Positions 35,871-64,000 of a stretch of 64,000 nucleotides of DNA are shown piece after piece. A program made the translations under genes and the position numbers. Origin of the DNA: Acidobacteriota bacterium (GTDB lineage: Bacteria > Acidobacteriota > Blastocatellia > RBC074); the NCBI GenBank assembly GCA_016196035.1, contig JACPYM010000029.1, forward strand, positions 124,001 through 188,000, in the 5' to 3' direction. Numbering within the stretch: the first letter of the stretch is position 1; every line of letters starts with the position of its first letter. The notes below the pieces were generated by a model, which saw only the letters and a program-made list of their open reading frames with translations, did not search any database and was not told the origin of the DNA.

Positions 35871-36575
35871 CTACTCTGCAAATAACAATTCGGGAAATTC
35901 GTAAAAGCCTGTCTTGCCCGCCAGCAATTCCGCCGCCAGCACCGCACCGGTGGCGAAGCCCGCGCGCGAGCGCGCAACGTGCGTGAGCGTGACCGTATCG
36001 GCTTCGCTGTCGAACCCGACTTCGTGCGTGCCGGGAATGTGTCCGGCCCGCAGGACACTGATGCCAGTGGGAAAGTCGGGCGTGCGCTCGCCGTAACTGG
36101 CGCGCATCTCTTTGGCGAGCGACAGCGCCGTGCCCGATGGTGCATCCTTTTTGAATTTGTGGTGCGCCTCAAACAAGAACGGGTCATATTCGGTGTAGCG
36201 CGCAAACAGCACCGACGCATCGCGCACGAGCTTAAAGAATAAATTCATGCCGATGGAAAAGTTGCTGCCATAAACCAACGCGGCGTTGTGCGCGGCGACG
36301 AGTTGTTTGACTTCGTCGAGATGCGCGAGCCAGCCCGTCGTGCCGACGACCGTGGGAACCCGCAACGCAACGAGGCGGCGAATGTTGATGAGCGCCGTGG
36401 CGGGCATGGTGAATTCGATGGCGGCGTCAACGCCCGCGAGCGCCTCGGCGGTGAGGCCCGCGCCGTCCACGTTGTTATCAATGTCGAAGCGCGCGACGAC
36501 CGTGTGGCCGCGCTGTTGCGCAATGCCTTCGATCATTTTGCCCATCTTGCCGTAACCGACGAGTGCGATATTCAT
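35871..36575 (-). CDS. dapB: 4-hydroxy-tetrahydrodipicolinate reductase
   Basis: Reduces the DapA product with NAD(P)H in lysine/diaminopimelate synthesis. The 234-residue protein has the nucleotide-binding start MNIALVGYGKMGKMIEGIA, the TTGW segment (VPTVVGTTGWLAHLDE), SNFSIGMNLFFKLV, and the catalytic FEAHHKFKKDAPSGTALSLA. It is shorter than typical enzymes (about 240-270), by small loops only. The ATG at 36575 overlaps the preceding GNAT stop by four bases. Confidence 0.95.
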   Translation of the reverse strand: MNIALVGYGKMGKMIEGIAQQRGHTVVARFDIDNNVDGAGLTAEALAGVDAAIEFTMPATALINIRRLVALRVPTVVGTTGWLAHLDEVKQLVAAHNAALVYGSNFSIGMNLFFKLVRDASVLFARYTEYDPFLFEAHHKFKKDAPSGTALSLAKEMRASYGERTPDFPTGISVLRAGHIPGTHEVGFDSEADTVTLTHVARSRAGFATGAVLAAELLAGKTGFYEFPELLFAE

Positions 36576-37072
36576 GAGAGATTCAGTTCGTATTCGTGAT
36601 TGGTGCGCCAACCGCCGCGCAGCGGAAAATCCATTTCGGCAGCGCCGGTGAAAATGAACCCGGCTTTTTCCAGGATGCGGGCCGACGCTTTGTTTTCGGG
36701 GAAAACACCCGCCAACAATTTTCGCGCCTTCAGCGAACGCGCCAGCGCGATCACCAATTGCACGGCGGCGGAAGCATAGCCGTTGCCCGCGTATTTGCGC
36801 CCCACCCAATAACCGATTTCAAACGTTTGCCTGACTTGTTCGACCAACCCGATGGCGCCGACAAATTCATCCTCGGGCTGGCGCAAGATGGCGAACATGT
36901 GCGGGTGCCAGTCCAGCCGTTGCGCAAGCCATTCGCGCGCCGCCGCTTCGGTGCAGGGGTAGGGGATGCTCCCCGTGGTTTTGATACTCTCCCAATCAGC
37001 ACCGAGCAAGCGCGCGTAATGCGCAGCGTCTGCCAAGCTGAGCGGGCGTAATCTGACGAGTGTTGCTTGCAT
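36572..37072 (-). CDS. GNAT acetyltransferase inside the lysine operon (RimJ-like)
   Basis: A 166-residue acetyltransferase of the RimJ/RimL type: VRLRPLSLADAAHYARLLG, EFVGAIGLVEQ, EIGYWVGRKYAGNGYASAAV (acetyl-CoA loop) and GVFPENKASARILEKAGF. It starts four bases after the lysC stop and overlaps dapB by four bases, so it is embedded between two lysine-pathway genes and must be cotranscribed with them. Its substrate is unknown. An acylated intermediate is one idea, since some bacteria use acetylated DAP-pathway intermediates, but the standard enzyme for that (DapH) has a different fold. Confidence 0.9.
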   Translation of the reverse strand: MQATLVRLRPLSLADAAHYARLLGADWESIKTTGSIPYPCTEAAAREWLAQRLDWHPHMFAILRQPEDEFVGAIGLVEQVRQTFEIGYWVGRKYAGNGYASAAVQLVIALARSLKARKLLAGVFPENKASARILEKAGFIFTGAAEMDFPLRGGWRTNHEYELNLS

Positions 37073-37076
37073 ACTT

Positions 37077-38477
37077 TCAGCCTGCCGCTTGCGCGCGCGC
37101 CGGGGCTTCAAACGTCGCTTCATCGAGCGTGCTGAAAAACTCCCGGTGCAAGACCTTGACGGCTTTCTCGACTTCGTTGTCGGCGACGATGAAGCTGACG
37201 TTGATGGCCGACGCGCCGTGCGAAATCATCGAAACGTTGACTTCGGCAATGCTTGAAAAAATCCGCGCGGCCACGCCCGGTGTGTATTTCAACTGTTCGC
37301 CGACCACGCAAATCAACGCCTGATTGCGTTCGACCTCGACTTCGCCAAATTCATTTAAGTCAGCAATCACAGCATCCAGATGGCGCGTGTCGTCGAGCGT
37401 CATCGAAACGCTGACCTCTGACGTCGCCACCATATCCACGGGCGTCTCGTGGTTGTCGAAGATGGCGAACAGCCGCGCCAGAAAGCCGTGCGCCATCAGC
37501 ATACGGTCGGAAGTCACGTTGACAATGGTGATGCCACGCTTGAACGCAATCGCTTTGACCAAGGCGCTGGCCGCCGCCGCCTTGCGCACAATGGCCGTGC
37601 CCGCAGCTTCGGGACGGCGCGAGTTGCAGACGAAGACCGGAATGTCCTCGGCCATCGCCGGCAACAGCGTCGAAGGGTGCAAGACCTTCGCGCCGAAGTA
37701 GGCCAATTCGGAAGCCTCGGCAAACGAGATGGTTTTGACTTTGGCGGCCTCGGCGACAATGCGCGGGTCGGTCGTCATAATGCCATCCACATCCGTCCAG
37801 ATTTGAATCTCTTCGGCAGCGAGCGCCGCGCCGATGATCGAAGCCGAAAAATCCGATCCGCCGCGCCCGATGGTCGTCGTGACACCTTGCGCTGTCGAAC
37901 CGATGAAACCTTGCGTCACGGGCACACCGCCCTCGGCCAGCACGGGCACAAAGCCGCTTTTCAAACGCGGATTGGCCGCGTCGAATTGTACGGCGGCGCG
38001 CGTGAAATCGTCGTTGGTGCGCATCAATGGGCGCACGTCCACGCGCTGTCCGTTGACGCCCGCCGCGCGAAACGCCGCCGCCACGATGTGCGACGACAGC
38101 AATTCACCGCTGGCCGACACCGCGTCAGACAAGCGCGGTGTAATTGCGCCAGCCCCTTGAATCTCAGCCAGCGCGGCTTTGACTTCGTCGAATTGGCGGA
38201 TGAGCGCAGCGCGCAATTCTTCGCGTTCGTCGGGCAGCGCCAACTCATCGGCGGTTTTGAAATGATGCGCAGCCAACGGCTCGACGCGCGCATACGCAGC
38301 CGTCAAATCGTTCGCCGCCGCTAGCCGTGCGGCTTCGAGCAAGCCATTCGTCGTCTTGCCCATCGCCGAGACGACCACGATGGGCTGGCGTCGCAAACGC
38401 GGGGTAACGATGGAAACAAGGCGGCGCATGGCGGTCGCGTCTTCGACCGAAGTGCCACCAAACTTCATCACGATCAT
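37077..38477 (-). CDS. lysC: Aspartate kinase, lysine-sensitive class III-like
   Basis: Phosphorylates aspartate, the entry to the lysine, threonine and methionine family. The 466-residue product has VMKFGGTSVEDATAMRR (ATP/aspartate-binding KFGGTS), TTTIGRGGSDFSASIIGAAL and VLHPSTLLPA, then two C-terminal ACT domains (VDMVATSEVSVSMTLDD; VNVSMISHGASAINVSFIV) for feedback control. The length and architecture fit monofunctional class III enzymes. Upstream on the same strand are a promoter, lysine riboswitch, terminator and an extra hairpin, so transcription is expected to fall when lysine is abundant. TTGGAGTT acts as ribosome binding site. Confidence 0.97.
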   Translation of the reverse strand: MIVMKFGGTSVEDATAMRRLVSIVTPRLRRQPIVVVSAMGKTTNGLLEAARLAAANDLTAAYARVEPLAAHHFKTADELALPDEREELRAALIRQFDEVKAALAEIQGAGAITPRLSDAVSASGELLSSHIVAAAFRAAGVNGQRVDVRPLMRTNDDFTRAAVQFDAANPRLKSGFVPVLAEGGVPVTQGFIGSTAQGVTTTIGRGGSDFSASIIGAALAAEEIQIWTDVDGIMTTDPRIVAEAAKVKTISFAEASELAYFGAKVLHPSTLLPAMAEDIPVFVCNSRRPEAAGTAIVRKAAAASALVKAIAFKRGITIVNVTSDRMLMAHGFLARLFAIFDNHETPVDMVATSEVSVSMTLDDTRHLDAVIADLNEFGEVEVERNQALICVVGEQLKYTPGVAARIFSSIAEVNVSMISHGASAINVSFIVADNEVEKAVKVLHREFFSTLDEATFEAPARAQAAG

Positions 38478-38624: not shown

Positions 38625-38806
38625 GATTGCCGAGAGCGCGCCAGCGCGATGCTGCTGACAGTCTCAGGGATTTAGCCCTGACAACCAGCCGGTGTGGGCG
38701 GCGAAGATGCCACACCTGCTTCGGCGGCTTGCCCCTTTCGCTCATCGTCCCGGAACCTTCGCGTTCTCGGATGAGTTACTCTTGAAAGCCGCGCCTCTAC
38801 TCGTTT
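38625..38806 (-). ncRNA. Lysine riboswitch (L-box)
   Basis: Minus-strand sequence matches the lysine aptamer block by block: AGAGGCGC (38798-38791), then TTTCAAGAGTAACTC; GAAAGGGGCAAGC (from 38739), CGCCGAAGCAGG (from 38726), then CTGGTTGTCAGGGC and GACTGTC (38663-38657). These are the segments conserved around the five-way junction. The gene controlled, lysC, and the downstream terminator fit. Boundaries are approximate, since the first helix (P1) pairs only loosely in this reading. Confidence 0.93.
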
Positions 38807-38840
38807 GCAAATCAAAAGATCAGTGCGTAAAAACGGGCGC

Positions 38841-56643: not shown

Positions 56644-56647
<4 letters not shown>

Positions 56648-58008
56648 GCGCTTTCCGCCCGGTATTCATCCAGCTTGCGATAGAGCGTTTTGCGATCCAG
56701 GCCGAGCATTTCTGCCGCGCGCGATTTATTGCCGCCCGTCTTGCGCAGCACTTCCAGGATGTAATCGCGTTCCAGTTCGCGCAGGGTGAGATTCTGTGCG
56801 CTGGATTGCGCGATGAGCCGGGCCGCCGCGCCGCCCGCCCGGATGCGGTCGGGCAAATCATTGGGGGTCAGTTGCGCGCCGCGCGTCAGGGCGGCGGCGC
56901 GCTCAATGGCGTTTTCCAATTCCCGCACATTGCCGGGCCATGAATACGCCGTCAGCAAGGCCAGCGTTTCGGGTGACACATCCAGCGGCGGCTGGCCGGA
57001 GGCGTTGGCGCTGCGGCTGATGAAATGTTCAACCAGCAGCGGAATGTCATAGGCGCGTTCGCGCAACGGCGGCACGCGCAGGTGGATGACATTCAAACGC
57101 CAATACAAATCCTGGCGGAAACGCCGGGTGTGCACATCCTCTTCCAACTCGCGGTTGGTGGCGGCGATGACGCGCACCTCAATCGCGCGTTCGTGCTCGG
57201 AACCCACACGCCGCACTGCTCCGGCTTGCAAGGCGCGCAACAATTTGGGTTGGACTGACAACGGCAGTTCGCCGATTTCGTCCAGGAAAAGCGTACCGTG
57301 ATCGGCGGCTTCAAACAGGCCCGTGCGCGCTTGGCGTGCGCCGGTGAAGGCCTGACCGGTGTGGCCGAAGAGTTCTGACTCGATCAGGTCGGCGGGGATG
57401 GCGGCGCAATTGACCGGGACAAAATTTCCTTTGCGTCCCGAAGCTTCGTGCACGGCGCGCGCCACCAACTCTTTGCCAGTGCCGGATTCGCCGGTGATGA
57501 GCACGGTGCTATTGCTTTGCGCGGCACGCGCAATCAGATCAAAGAGTTCGCGCATCGGACGCGAGGCTCCGATGATGAGTGTGGGCGTGGTGGGAATTTC
57601 GCGGCGCAGGCGTGCTTGAGCGCGTTGCGGCGCGCTGCGTTCGAGGGCTTGTTCGATGGTGGAGAGCAGTTCAGCGGTCTTGAAGGGTTTGGTGACGTAT
57701 TGAAACGCGCCTGCCTTGACCAATTCGACGGCCTGCTCCACCGAACCGAACGCGGTGATGACGATGACGGGAACTTCGGCGCGCCGGGCGCGGGCGGTGC
57801 GCAACAATTCATCGCCTTTCAGCAATGGCATTTGCACATCGGTGATGAGCAGGTCGAGCGGTTCGTGGTCGCGTTGCAACAGGGCCAGGGCCGCCCGGCC
57901 ATCCGCCGCCAGCACGGGTTCGTGGCCCGCCTCTTCCAACACTTCCTGCAACAGGTCGCGCATATCGGCGTCGTCTTCGGCAATTAACAAACGTGCTTTG
58001 TTCATCAT
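56644..58008 (-). CDS. Sigma-54-dependent response regulator (NtrC family)
   Basis: A 454-residue activator. Receiver domain 1-120 (phosphoacceptor D57 in [10 protein letters not shown]). AAA+ domain with Walker [21 protein letters not shown] (sigma-54 contact loop, GAFTGA form changed to QAFTGA), and DEIGELPL. C-terminal Fis-type helix-turn-helix ([33 protein letters not shown]). Partner of the histidine kinase gene at 58070. The first position of the contact loop differing from G is worth noting; activity with sigma-54 is not guaranteed. No sigma-54 promoter was identified here. Confidence 0.94.
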
Positions 58009-58069
58009 ATTTTCACGGCACGACCCGCGTCGTCAGGTGAAACCGCCAGGACGAATGCACGCCGCCCCC

Positions 58070-59650
58070 TCAAACCGGTTGCGGAGCTTGCGCGGCCTGT
58101 TCCCGGGGTTTTCTTTGTTTTATCCCCGCGCTGGGTTGAAGTTCCTTGGTACCCGGCACCTCAGCGACTGTTGCTGCTTCGGCGACAGCCTCCTTGGCGA
58201 CTGGCAGATAAAGGGTGAATTGCGCACCCCGGGTTGCGTTATTGGTGGCGGTGATCCACCCACCGTGCTCTTCGACAATGCGGCGCGAGACAGCCAGTCC
58301 CAGTCCGGTGCCGTTGCCGATGTCCTTGGTTGTAAAGAAGGGATCAAAAAGGTGCATGAGATGTTCGGGGGCAATGCCAGTGCCGGTGTCGCGCACGCTG
58401 ATGCTGGCGAAGCGTTGCCCGTTGCGCAGCAGCAATGGCCCCGCGCATGCGATCAACAAACGGCCACCGTCGGGCATGGCGTGCAATCCGTTTTGACAAA
58501 CATTGAGCAAGACCTGATGGATCAATTCGCTGTCTATGTCAAAAAGAACATTTTCAACCTTGTGAATGACCAACTCGATTTGCTGGCGGGCCGCATCGGC
58601 TTCGAGCAATTCAACGACCCCGGCGACTAGCGGGCCTGCGGCGGTCGGGGTGCGGTGCAATTGATAGGGCCGCGCCAGATTGAGCAATTGCCGCACAATG
58701 CGCGTGATGCGTTCGATTTGTCCGCGAATGATCGTCAGGTTGCGTTGGCGAATCGGCAAAGGCGCGTCAACGCGTTCCAGCAATTGCTCGGCGCGCGCGT
58801 CAATGACGTTGAGCGGCGTGCCGATTTCATGCGCGACACCGGCGGCCAGCCGGCCCACGGCGGCCAAACGTTCGGTGTCGCGCAGTTCGCGTTCCAGTTT
58901 CAAGCGGCGCTCGGCCTCGCGCTCAGCGGTTTGGCGCTGTTCCGCCAAACTGTCGGCCATGCGGTTAAATTCGCGCGCGAGTTGGGCCAGTTCACTGCCT
59001 TGGCGCGGTTCGGGCACGCGGTAATTCAGATCGCCCCGCCCGAGCGCCGCCGCCCCGCGCACCAGCGCGCGGATCGGTTGCACCAGGCTATAACGCATCA
59101 CCGCCAGGACGGCGAGCAGAATGGCCGCAAAGACTAGTAAGGTGACAACCGTAATGTCGCGGCGCGCCAGCGCGAGTTCCGTTTTGATGAAACTGGTGGG
59201 TTGCGCCAACTCAAACGCGCCGCGCCGCGCCGCGCCCAGCGAAAGCGGCGTGAGCAGGGAAGCGACTTCCTCATTGTTGAAGCGGCGCGTGCGTTCCGTG
59301 GGGATACCGGTCGTGGCAACGCTGCGCGCGGCTTCATTCTGTTGCCGGTTTTCAGCCGTCATTGAACTGGAGGCCAACACGGCGGTTCCCGTTTCATCAA
59401 AGACCAGCACGCCAAAAACCTTCGGATTTTGGCTCAGGCTGTCAATCAACAGTTGCGCTTCTTGTGGGCGTCCCGCGCGAAAAACATTTTCCAGGGCGAT
59501 TTGCAGCGTCAAGGCTTGGGCATGCATTTCATTTTGCAACATCCGTTGCAGAAACGTTTCACGTTGGCGCAACCGGTAATAGCCGCCCGCCGCCATAATC
59601 AGGCCCACCAAAACAGTCAGAATCAAAATGAGTCGAGTACTGGTTCGCAT
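58070..59650 (-). CDS. Sensor histidine kinase with HAMP domain
   Basis: A 526-residue membrane sensor: transmembrane segment ([19 protein letters not shown]), periplasmic sensor (about residues 30-170), second transmembrane segment ([18 protein letters not shown]), HAMP ([20 protein letters not shown]), dimerisation helix with H274 in [15 protein letters not shown], and ATP-binding domain ([54 protein letters not shown]). Cognate of the NtrC-type regulator 61 bases downstream. The stimulus is unknown; the antiporter suggests ion, pH or osmotic stress. Confidence 0.94.
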
Positions 59651-60522: not shown

Positions 60523-60744
60523 ATGCAACGCGAACCTGTAAAAAGCGCTGTTTTGCCGGGGTTGCAACAGTTATGTGCAGTGGCCGGCGCCATTTGCCTG
60601 GTGGTGGGCGCGCTGGCCGTGGTGGGCTGGCTGCTGCGCGACATCCTGGGGTTCGAGTTGCGCTTTCACGGAAGCTTTTTTCCGTTTGCCATGCTCATGG
60701 TCGTCGGCGCCGGGTTTGTCATTGGCAGTTGGCGTGAACCTTAG
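60523..60744 (+). CDS. Small membrane protein of unknown function
   Basis: A 73-residue protein with two hydrophobic segments (LCAVAGAICLVVGALAVVGW and FFPFAMLMVVGAGFVIGSW) linked by a short charged loop (LRDILGFELRFHG), so a two-helix inner-membrane hairpin. Not recognised. The start lacks an obvious ribosome binding site. A 9-bp stem (60763-60771 with 60787-60795, CGAAGTTGC) follows the stop and may terminate transcription. Confidence 0.5.
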   Translation: MQREPVKSAVLPGLQQLCAVAGAICLVVGALAVVGWLLRDILGFELRFHGSFFPFAMLMVVGAGFVIGSWREP

Positions 60745-60908
60745 TTTCAAACGTATTTTCAGCGAAGTTGCTACAGGCCCCGTGCCGCAACTTCGACACT
60801 TTGCCGCGAAAAGGCGTCAAGAACACAAATAGGCTGGCTAGCTTTGGAATCCTAACGCAACGTGTGATGCGCGTCCCTTAAACGCAGCATACTTGCGGAG
60901 GAGGTGTA

Positions 60909-60986
60909 ATGCCTATTGGTTCGTTTGCGCCTAACGCCTTTTTGCGGCAAGCAATCGCTCGGATGTTTTACCGGGACGCGATGTGA
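60909..60986 (+). CDS. Candidate 25-residue leader peptide
   Basis: An ATG directly preceded by GGAGGAGGTG (60897-60906), an almost ideal ribosome binding site. The peptide begins MPIGSFAPNAFLRQAIARMF and ends YRDAM. The last codons and the TGA overlap the terminator hairpin. Not recognised; the evidence is the ribosome binding site and the overlap with the terminator. Confidence 0.45.
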   Translation: MPIGSFAPNAFLRQAIARMFYRDAM

Positions 60987-61009
60987 AACACATGGCGTCC
61001 CGTTTTTTT
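60972..61009 (+). terminator. Strong intrinsic terminator
   Basis: CGGGACGC (60972-60979) pairs with GCGTCCCG (60995-61002); inside, ATGTG pairs with CACAT around an AAA loop, with one G-G mismatch. Seven T's follow immediately (61003-61009). This is the strongest terminator in the window. Confidence 0.9.
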
Positions 61010-61051
61010 GCCTGTGAAAATTGAGGATAACTTGCCACCTACAGACACTGA

Positions 61052-61179
61052 CAGGACTTACGCAAAACGCGAGGTAGTCACAGCGGCACAGAGGCACAGA
61101 GCTTTGTTTAGTTCTGCCAGTGATCGCGGTCTTTCTCTGTGTCTCCGTGCCTCTGTGGCAAATCTTTGCGTCAGCCCTG
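61052..61179. repeat. Repeat family B element
   Basis: Outer arms CAGGACTTACGCAAA (61052) and TTTGCGTCAGCCCTG (ends 61179) pair with two mismatches; inside are CAGAGGCACAGAG and CTCCGTGCCTCTGTGG arms. Same design as 34636-34764. It lies in the leader region upstream of the glutamate dehydrogenase gene; the remainder of 60745-61418 apart from this and the attenuator region holds nothing else recognised. Confidence 0.85.
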
Positions 61180-61418
61180 ACTGAAATACCTACGCCAGTT
61201 AACGTCTAAGCCTAAGTCCCTGCCTCTCGCTGTACACATCTGCATGCCGTAAACGCCGCCTGCCCGGGTTTCAATGGATAAGGTTTGCGCGAACCTTGTG
61301 CGAAGCGGCGGATTCGCTTGTCATTTCTCCGGCACACAGGTTTAATCTGCGCGCGGTTCGACCGGCCTGAAGGCGAATAGAAATACATAACATAAATGAT
61401 TGATACGGGGAGTCCACC

Positions 61419-64000
61419 ATGATTGATAAAACCGAGAGAATGGAAGAAGTCCTGGCGCTTGTCCGCGCCAAAGCGCCTGCCGAACAACGCGCCACACTCG
61501 AACGTTTCGTCAATGCGTACTATGACCAGGTGGCGCCGGAAGATTTGATCGAACGGCGGGCCGATGATCTGTATGGCGCGGCCCTTTCGCTCTGGAATTT
61601 TGCGCGCAAACGCATGCCAGGGCAGCCCAAAGTGCGCGCCTTCAACCCGACCGTCGAAGAACACGGCTGGCAATCCACCCACACGGTGATCGAAGTCGTC
61701 AACAACGATATGCCTTTTCTGGTGGATTCGGTGACGATGGAAATCAACCGCCACAGCCAGATGCTGCATTTGATCATTCACCCGATTTTGCGCGTGCGCC
61801 GTCAGGCCGAGGGCGAACTGACCGCGCTGGTCAACGCAGATGAAAAAGAGGCACGGGCCGAATCGTTCATGCACGTCGAAGTTGACCGGCTAGTCGCGCC
61901 GCAGCAATTGGCGCAGTTGGCCGAGGATGTCTTGAAAGTGCTGGGCGATGTGCGCGTCGCGGTCGAAGACTGGCCGAAGATGATGGCGCAGGTCAACGCC
62001 GTGCTCGAAGAGATAGAGCAGCGCAACCCGCCGGTCGCGCCGGACGAAAGCGCCGAGGGCAAAGCCTTTTTGCGCTGGCTGGCCGACGATCATTTCACCT
62101 TTCTGGGCTACCGCTGCTACGACCTGACCCAGGTCAACGGCGAAGATGCCTTGAGCATTGTGCCTGAATCCGGGTTGGGCATTTTGCGCGAACGCGAAGG
62201 GCATGAGGTTTCCGGCCAACCTTCCATTTTGCCCGCCAATCAACGCGCGTTCGCCCGTTTGCCGCGTCTGGTGTTTGTGACCAAAGCCAATTCCAAGGCC
62301 ACGGTGCATCGTTCGGCCTATCTTGATTACATCGGCGTCAAACGCTTCAACGAACGGGGCGAGGTGTGTGGCGAGCATCGGTTCTTGGGGCTGTTCACCT
62401 CGACAGCCTATAGCGCCGAGCCGGAATTTATTCCGTACTTGCGCCGCAAAACGGCCAACGTCATCGCGCGTTCAGGCATTGCGCCCGGCAGTCACGCCGG
62501 CAAGACCTTGCTCGACATCATCGAAAATTATCCGCGCGATGAGTTGTTCCAGATCGGCGAAATGGAGTTGCTCAAAACCGTCACGGCCATCGTGCATCTG
62601 GGCGAACGCCAGCGCTTGCGTCTGTTTGTGCGGCGCGATCCGTTCGACCGGTTTATTTCCTGCCTGATCTATGCGCCGCGCGAAAATTACAACACCGATT
62701 TGCGCCAGCATTGGCAGCGCATTTTGCAGCAGGCCTTCAATGGCACGGGCACCGATTACAACGCCTTGCTCTCGCAGCAATCCGTGCTGGTGCGCACGCT
62801 GATCACGGTGCGCACGACGCCGGGGCTGATTCCCGACTACGACATCGCCGATCTCGAACGGCGCTTGATTTTGGCGGCACGCCGTTGGGAAGACGATTTG
62901 CAGGATGCCTTGCGCGAGGCGCTGGGTGAAGCGCGCGGCGGCGCCTTGTTCCAGCGGTATCAACATGCTTTTCCGGCGGCGTATAGCGAAGATTTCGCCG
63001 CGCGCAGCGCCGTGCCCGACATTCAACGCGTCGAACGTTTGCTGGCGGGCGAACCGTTCAGTCTCTCGCTTTACCGTCCGCTCGAAGCCGCGCCCAACAC
63101 GCTGCGCTTCAAACTCGTGCACAAAGGCAAACCGGTCGCGCTCTCTGACAGCTTGCCGATGCTCGAATGCATGGGCTTGCGCGTGCTGGATGAGCGGCCC
63201 TACCACCTGTCGTTGGCAGGCGAAGAGACCGTCTGGATTCACGATTTCGGCCTGATGAGCCAGCGCGCCGATTTCGATTTGGAAATCGAGCAATTGCACG
63301 AAATCTTTGAGGACGCCTTTAGCCGCATCTTTCGCGGCGAGATCGAGCGCGATGATTTCAACCGCCTGGTCATCGCCGCGCGCCTGCCGGCAGAAGAGAT
63401 CGTGATCCTGCGTGCTTATGCCAAATACATGCGCCAGATCGGCTTCCCGCTCTCGCAAAGCTTTATCGAAGCCACGCTCGCCAACAACGCCGCGTTGGCT
63501 CAGCATTTGATTGCGCTCTTCAAACTACGCTTCGATCCGGCGCAAGCCGGCGCGTTCAGCGAAACAGCCGAGGGCGAATTGATCAAAGAGATTCGCGCGG
63601 CGCTCGAACATGTGCAAAACCTGAACGAAGACCGTGTGCTGCGCCAATACCTCAACCTGATTCGCGCCACCACGCGCACCAATTTCTGGCGCGTGGATGG
63701 TCTGCACGGGCCAGCGGGCAAACGCCGCAGCTTCCTCTCGTTCAAATTCGATCCGTCAAAAGTGCCGGGCCTGCCCGAACCGAAACCGATGTTCGAGATT
63801 TTCGTTTACTCGCCGCGTTTCGAGGGCGTGCATTTGCGCGGCGGCAAGGTGGCGCGCGGCGGTTTGCGCTGGTCGGATCGCCCCGAGGATTTCCGCACCG
63901 AAATTCTGGGCCTGGTCAAAGCGCAGATGGTCAAGAACACCGTCATCGTGCCCGTCGGTTCGAAAGGCGGCTTCGTGCTCAAACGTCCCATCTCGCCCGC
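61419..64000 (+). CDS. NAD-specific glutamate dehydrogenase, large (about 180 kDa) type, 5' part
   Basis: Oxidatively deaminates glutamate to 2-oxoglutarate. The first 860 codons are in the window and the frame stays open to its end. N-terminal regulatory half: NNDMPFLVDSVTMEINRH (start of the Bac_GDH N-domain), ADDHFTFLGYRCYDL, RSAYLDYIGVKRFNERGEV, GLFTSTAY, then ACT-like segments (LIYAPRENYNTDL). Near the end come GGLRWSDRPEDFRTEILGL and MVKNTVIVPVGSKGGFVLK, the beginning of the catalytic domain with the substrate lysine. The intact enzyme is typically about 1600 residues. GGGGAG seven bases before the ATG at 61419 fixes the start. A repeat and an attenuator-like leader precede it. Confidence 0.95.
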   Translation, partial: MIDKTERMEEVLALVRAKAPAEQRATLERFVNAYYDQVAPEDLIERRADDLYGAALSLWNFARKRMPGQPKVRAFNPTVEEHGWQSTHTVIEVVNNDMPFLVDSVTMEINRHSQMLHLIIHPILRVRRQAEGELTALVNADEKEARAESFMHVEVDRLVAPQQLAQLAEDVLKVLGDVRVAVEDWPKMMAQVNAVLEEIEQRNPPVAPDESAEGKAFLRWLADDHFTFLGYRCYDLTQVNGEDALSIVPESGLGILREREGHEVSGQPSILPANQRAFARLPRLVFVTKANSKATVHRSAYLDYIGVKRFNERGEVCGEHRFLGLFTSTAYSAEPEFIPYLRRKTANVIARSGIAPGSHAGKTLLDIIENYPRDELFQIGEMELLKTVTAIVHLGERQRLRLFVRRDPFDRFISCLIYAPRENYNTDLRQHWQRILQQAFNGTGTDYNALLSQQSVLVRTLITVRTTPGLIPDYDIADLERRLILAARRWEDDLQDALREALGEARGGALFQRYQHAFPAAYSEDFAARSAVPDIQRVERLLAGEPFSLSLYRPLEAAPNTLRFKLVHKGKPVALSDSLPMLECMGLRVLDERPYHLSLAGEETVWIHDFGLMSQRADFDLEIEQLHEIFEDAFSRIFRGEIERDDFNRLVIAARLPAEEIVILRAYAKYMRQIGFPLSQSFIEATLANNAALAQHLIALFKLRFDPAQAGAFSETAEGELIKEIRAALEHVQNLNEDRVLRQYLNLIRATTRTNFWRVDGLHGPAGKRRSFLSFKFDPSKVPGLPEPKPMFEIFVYSPRFEGVHLRGGKVARGGLRWSDRPEDFRTEILGLVKAQMVKNTVIVPVGSKGGFVLKRPISP

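Follow-up and report, generated by a model that had tools for sequence, protein, structure and literature searches.

Does the 25-codon open reading frame (ORF) that runs into a strong terminator ahead of a glutamate dehydrogenase (GDH) gene in the genome of a soil Acidobacteriota bacterium control that gene, or does it belong to a transcription unit of its own? We addressed this question computationally in a window of 64,000 nucleotides, the whole stretch of DNA that was analyzed. An earlier note had read the arrangement as translation-coupled attenuation of GDH, and had also considered a new leader or a small RNA/peptide gene. We consider it unlikely that the unit is a regulator of GDH. Judging from its sequence, the region from about 60763 or 60801 to 61009 may be an independent, self-terminated short unit unique to its lineage, namely a folded candidate small RNA with a 25-codon ORF, and we put the probability of this reading at roughly 0.5.

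Setting of the locus

The host draft genome comprises 9.6 Mb in 139 contigs, of which 1.2 Mb was sampled for genome-wide background counts. The candidate unit is located between a minus-strand regulator pair and the GDH gene, on the same strand as GDH. The neighboring genes are as follows.

56644-59650, minus strand: histidine kinase/NtrC-type regulator pair, flanking the candidate unit on one side
60523-60744, plus strand: probable small membrane protein of 73 aa; codon score 0.32, like real genes
61419-63998, plus strand: large-type NAD-dependent GDH, running past the window end; Pfam GDH_ACT1-3, HM1-3 and Bac_GDH_CD

Elsewhere in the window, a lysine riboswitch (Rfam RF00168, 86.5 bits) was found on the minus strand at 38627-38807, ~150 nt ahead of an ORF of 466 aa (37077-38477, minus strand) that we take to be aspartokinase-like. 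Beyond this ORF, downstream of the riboswitch, lies a further minus-strand ORF (35871-36809), which is presumably dihydrodipicolinate-reductase-like.

A strongly initiated ORF ends inside the terminator

The core of the unit consists of three elements.

60897-60905, plus strand: Shine-Dalgarno (SD) sequence GGAGGAGGT; anti-SD duplex -12.0 kcal/mol
60909 (ATG) to 60984-60986 (TGA), plus strand: 25-codon ORF MPIGSFAPNAFLRQAIARMFYRDAM, read from the sequence, with its TGA in the terminator loop
60972-61009, plus strand: intrinsic terminator with a 13-pair stem containing one G-G mismatch, an AAA loop and T7; -22.9 kcal/mol

The near-ideal ribosome binding site proposed in the earlier note is borne out by the SD at 60897-60905. 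A duplex of -12.0 kcal/mol before an ATG was found only 3 times per 600 kb (one strand of the host genome) and 0 times in a shuffle. Likewise, the stop of the ORF (60909-60986) does lie inside a very strong terminator: the hairpin at 60972-61002 (-22.9 kcal/mol) is followed by T7 at 61003-61009, and its fold z is -6.7. Among 264 terminator-like sites surveyed in the 1.2 Mb of host genome, 32 reached -22 kcal/mol or lower. ORF overlap was examined for 257 of these sites. Only one hairpin, that entered by 60909-60986, contained the end of an ATG ORF no longer than 60 codons with a convincing SD; three other sites overlapped ORFs with weak TTG starts. At 0.08, the codon score of the ORF is higher than in 98.5% of random ORFs and lower than in most genes. 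This one case in 257, together with the rarity of the SD and the codon usage, places the overlap of SD, ORF and terminator above ordinary background.

The codon listing contained no Glu codon, a single Gln codon and no codon run, and the peptide indeed lacks a run of any one amino acid, as had been remarked before. A type I toxin-like hydrophobic peptide was considered and rejected, the 25 residues having a mean hydropathy of 0.25, which is not membrane-like.

Since the TGA lies within the terminator hairpin, a ribosome completing the ORF would itself block hairpin formation. When a stop codon in E. coli was shifted to a position 5 bp ahead of a terminator, termination fell from ~90% to <10% (PMC4824070), and pyrL acts through such ribosome-terminator coupling (PMC5021804).

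A long-range inverted repeat encloses the initiation region

We observed additional structure upstream of the segment described so far.

60763-60795, plus strand: hairpin CGAAGTTGC...GCAACTTCG, an inverted repeat of 9 perfect pairs at -15.9 kcal/mol; possible transcript 5' end
60801-60817, plus strand: left arm TTGCCGCGAAAAGGCGT of a 17-bp long-range inverted repeat (P1), 94% complementary, its single mismatch being a G-U pair in RNA
60934-60950, plus strand: P1 right arm ACGCCTTTTTGCGGCAA, located within the ORF, from the inverted-repeat scan

P1 encloses both the SD and the start codon and was absent from the earlier note, whose coordinates were correct and too narrow, missing the inverted repeat back to 60801. 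The predicted folding energy of 60763-61012 is -104.4 kcal/mol (z -5.53), matched by 0 of 200 shuffles, and a z of -4.1 was obtained for 60795-60956. Without the segment before 60850 the leader is ordinary (60850-60965, z -0.56). With a transcript start at 60763 or 60801, the SD is predicted to be only ~16-19% unpaired. Upstream regions more structured than that of the candidate unit were found at 6 of 137 strong terminators.

Inverted repeats are common in this genome, with 218 pairs of arms of at least 17 bp and loops of 40-250 in the 1.2-Mb host sample (L127-L186). Palindromic repeat families with arms of at least 17 bp are abundant in the host; CGGGACGGTACCGCGCG, CTTTGGAGTGCGGCGGC, CCTGGGTACGCACCGCT and GAGATTACGGAACAGAC are examples. 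P1 might represent the terminal inverted repeats of a palindromic mobile-repeat remnant, or another nonfunctional coincidence, with the ORF being accidental. The 218 palindromic repeats are in keeping with this explanation, as are a palindromic repeat only 40 nt away and the failure to find conservation in the genomes searched. However, P1 occurs only once in the 1.2 Mb examined, the core of the unit is not repeated elsewhere in the genome, and no target-site duplication was seen; a mobile element bounded by P1 was rejected for these reasons. Moreover, SD and terminator strength combined are unlikely to arise by chance. We regard a repeat remnant as quite unlikely.

Pairing with the terminator left arm is common by chance and energetically disfavored

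The earlier note had assigned the role of an alternative pairing partner to a segment upstream of the SD.

60856-60898, plus strand: hairpin with the proposed antiterminator segment in its loop region; -16.6 kcal/mol, z -2.5
60870-60877, plus strand: CGCGTCCC, an 8-nt complement of the terminator left arm found by the inverted-repeat scan, pairing with GGGACGCG at 60973-60980

The complement is present, and it spans 8 nt rather than the 7 reported. A perfect left-arm complement of at least 7 nt within the preceding 120 nt was found for 19 of 135 strong terminators (14%), which is the level of chance. Forcing the alternative helix cost +12.3 kcal/mol in a transcript from 60850 and ~30 kcal/mol in longer ones, computed without a pseudoknotted kissing pairing. 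This alternative pairing is therefore common by chance and energetically disfavored.

The upstream gene and the search for a promoter

The interval 60745-60850 yielded no good promoter. The best upstream candidate (60729-60759) scored 7.4, a level reached about 2 times per kb by chance. A sigma-54 promoter for the unit, an idea taken from the nearby NtrC-type regulator, was searched for and no convincing site emerged.

The unit could alternatively be the 3' untranslated region (UTR) and terminator of the 73-aa gene (60523-60744), the SD and ORF then being either a small cotranscribed second gene or a coincidence. This would fit the gene-like codon usage of the 73-aa ORF, the lack of a clear promoter between 60745 and 60850 and the position of the terminator, which is closer to this gene than to GDH. 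On the other hand, a 3' UTR of 228 nt would be long, such a reading leaves the very strong SD at 60897 unexplained, and the 73-aa ORF itself has no visible SD, no family match and no match in the genomes of the host's family. We rank the 3' end of an upstream small gene's transcript second after the orphan self-terminated unit, as a possible though rather doubtful explanation.

GDH has its own predicted promoter behind an interspersed repeat

Two elements lie between the terminator and GDH.

~61052-61180 (~130 bp), unstranded: high-copy palindromic MITE-like interspersed repeat CACAGAGGCACAGAG...CTCTGTGTCTCCGTGCCTCTGTGG, separating the terminator from GDH
61318-61346, plus strand: predicted GDH promoter TTGTCA-N17-TTTAAT, near-consensus, score 13.6, supported by congener comparison

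As the earlier note had indicated, GDH starts (61419) 410 nt past the T-run and behind a repeat, for which we obtained 72 genome alignments at E<=1e-3, in roughly 40 places. The predicted promoter is located downstream of both the terminator and this repeat, and its score of 13.6 has a genome background of <0.05 per kb. In a congener (L032, an Acidobacteria MAG) whose GDH is 83% identical, both promoter hexamers and their spacing are identical, while the spacer differs.

The terminator lies 410 nt from the GDH start and 228 nt from the upstream 73-aa ORF. In predicting attenuators, Naville and Gautheret applied a filter that accepts a terminator within 300 nt of, and nearer to, the downstream gene (PMC2965389), and the candidate terminator falls outside it on these distances.

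These data bear on the proposal that a ribosome on the 25-codon ORF sets the terminator of a GDH attenuator, that read-through transcribes GDH and that the repeat was inserted later. The proposal can draw on the only convincing SD-ORF-terminator overlap among 257 terminators, on the shared strand of unit and GDH, and on the stop in the hairpin, which provides real coupling physics (PMC4824070; pyrL, PMC5021804). However, a strong, conserved predicted GDH promoter lies downstream of the terminator, the gene is 410 nt away with a mobile repeat in between, the ORF has no Glu codon, one Gln codon and no run, and the alternative helix is frequent by chance and 12-30 kcal/mol worse. The terminator is also very strong, whereas 5' regulatory terminators tend toward lower stability (PMC2965389). 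Given GDH's own promoter, a geometry that is not that of trp, the absence of a Glu codon or run and the 410/228-nt distances, translation-coupled attenuation of GDH appears improbable, and this part of the earlier note is not sustained. The other option that it raised, a small RNA/peptide gene, is compatible with all findings.

The GDH itself (61419-63998) is 83% identical to that of one congener; its next closest matches are from Betaproteobacteria (67%), and hardly any other member of the class has it. This distribution suggests that the large NAD-GDH was acquired horizontally.

Searches for relatives

Searches by DNA, peptide and covariance model (in the family and in up to 162 class genomes) recovered only the unit's own locus above chance, and a DNA search of 58 relatives returned no counterpart. 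Peptide matches in the 162 class genomes were weak, all in unrelated frames and several with stops, and were rejected. The other matches of a single-sequence covariance model (E 0.06-0.6) were likewise discarded, those inspected being generic hairpins without the SD-ORF layout. Apart from chance microRNA matches on the repeat, no Rfam family matched the region at E<=5, and no curated covariance model of a known riboswitch or cis-regulatory RNA did so. A plasmid search returned nothing.

GDH of the same type occurs in only 2 other of the 162 class genomes, G003 (83%) and G021 (28%). G003, the only genome sharing this GDH type closely, is 73% complete, and only 117 nt of contig precede its GDH, too little to reach the unit. 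The neighboring histidine kinase has best homologues elsewhere in the family of 44-54% identity, and the intergenic region was not recognizable in any of their flanks. Conservation of the ORF and helix, on which the earlier proposal depended, was lacking in all genomes that could be searched, with the contig of the closest relative, G003, stopping short of the site.

Comparison with known systems

The unit resembles E. coli pyrBI, in which a short ORF (pyrL) runs into an intrinsic terminator and a close ribosome would prevent the hairpin (PMC5021804; PMC4824070). Here too, the ORF reaches the hairpin, with its TGA (60984-60986) within 60972-61002. In contrast to pyrBI, the downstream gene has its own predicted promoter and is set apart by a repeat, neither a pause nor a UTP-sensing element was identified, and no relatives were found. 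This promoter of GDH argues against a dependence of the gene on read-through.

A ribosome binding site, a short ORF and a terminator are shared with leader-peptide attenuators of the trp/his/ilv type. Unlike in those, the ORF lacks a run of regulatory codons specifying the amino acid product, and the stop lies within the terminator itself. The competing segment is located upstream of the ORF and not after control codons: the only complement, 60870-60877, precedes the SD, and we found no competing antiterminator that a stalled ribosome would release. Attenuators of the trp/his type also have no promoter between terminator and gene, whereas a conserved promoter-like site intervenes here (61318-61346).

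With dual-function small RNAs, which are self-terminated and contain a small ORF, the candidate would have in common a short structured transcript, a strong SD-led ORF and a strong terminator; it differs in that neither a homologue nor a promoter was recognized. Acidobacterial RNA motifs and other Rfam families are similar as structured RNAs in an acidobacterial genome, and none of these families matches.

Proposed behavior of the unit and its meaning

The reading as an independent unit draws on the terminator with its T7, the exceptional SD, the fold z of -5.53, P1, the separate GDH promoter, the filter distances and the codon usage. Against it stand the lack of a convincing near promoter, the lack of relatives found, a genome rich in inverted repeats, the 6 of 137 terminators with more structure upstream and the unremarkable fold of 60850-60965.

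If transcribed as proposed, the RNA would fold through P1 and the local hairpins so that the SD and start are mostly masked. A ribosome translating as far as the TGA in the hairpin would melt P1 and the terminator left arm. Translation would then favor read-through, and its absence termination, in a pyrBI-like coupling. Since the predicted fold masks initiation, and since GDH is served by a predicted promoter of its own beyond the repeat, the usual product would probably be a short terminated RNA.

The same structure could be cast as a lineage-specific attenuator of a masked-start, coupling type, in which translation opens the long-range helix and the terminator and so switches between short RNA and read-through toward GDH. 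We consider this very improbable; if true, it would be unlike described families. If the independent, self-terminated unit is expressed, it would add another orphan small RNA/small protein with a clean overlap of terminator and stop, and would provide a useful test of transcription-translation coupling outside model bacteria.
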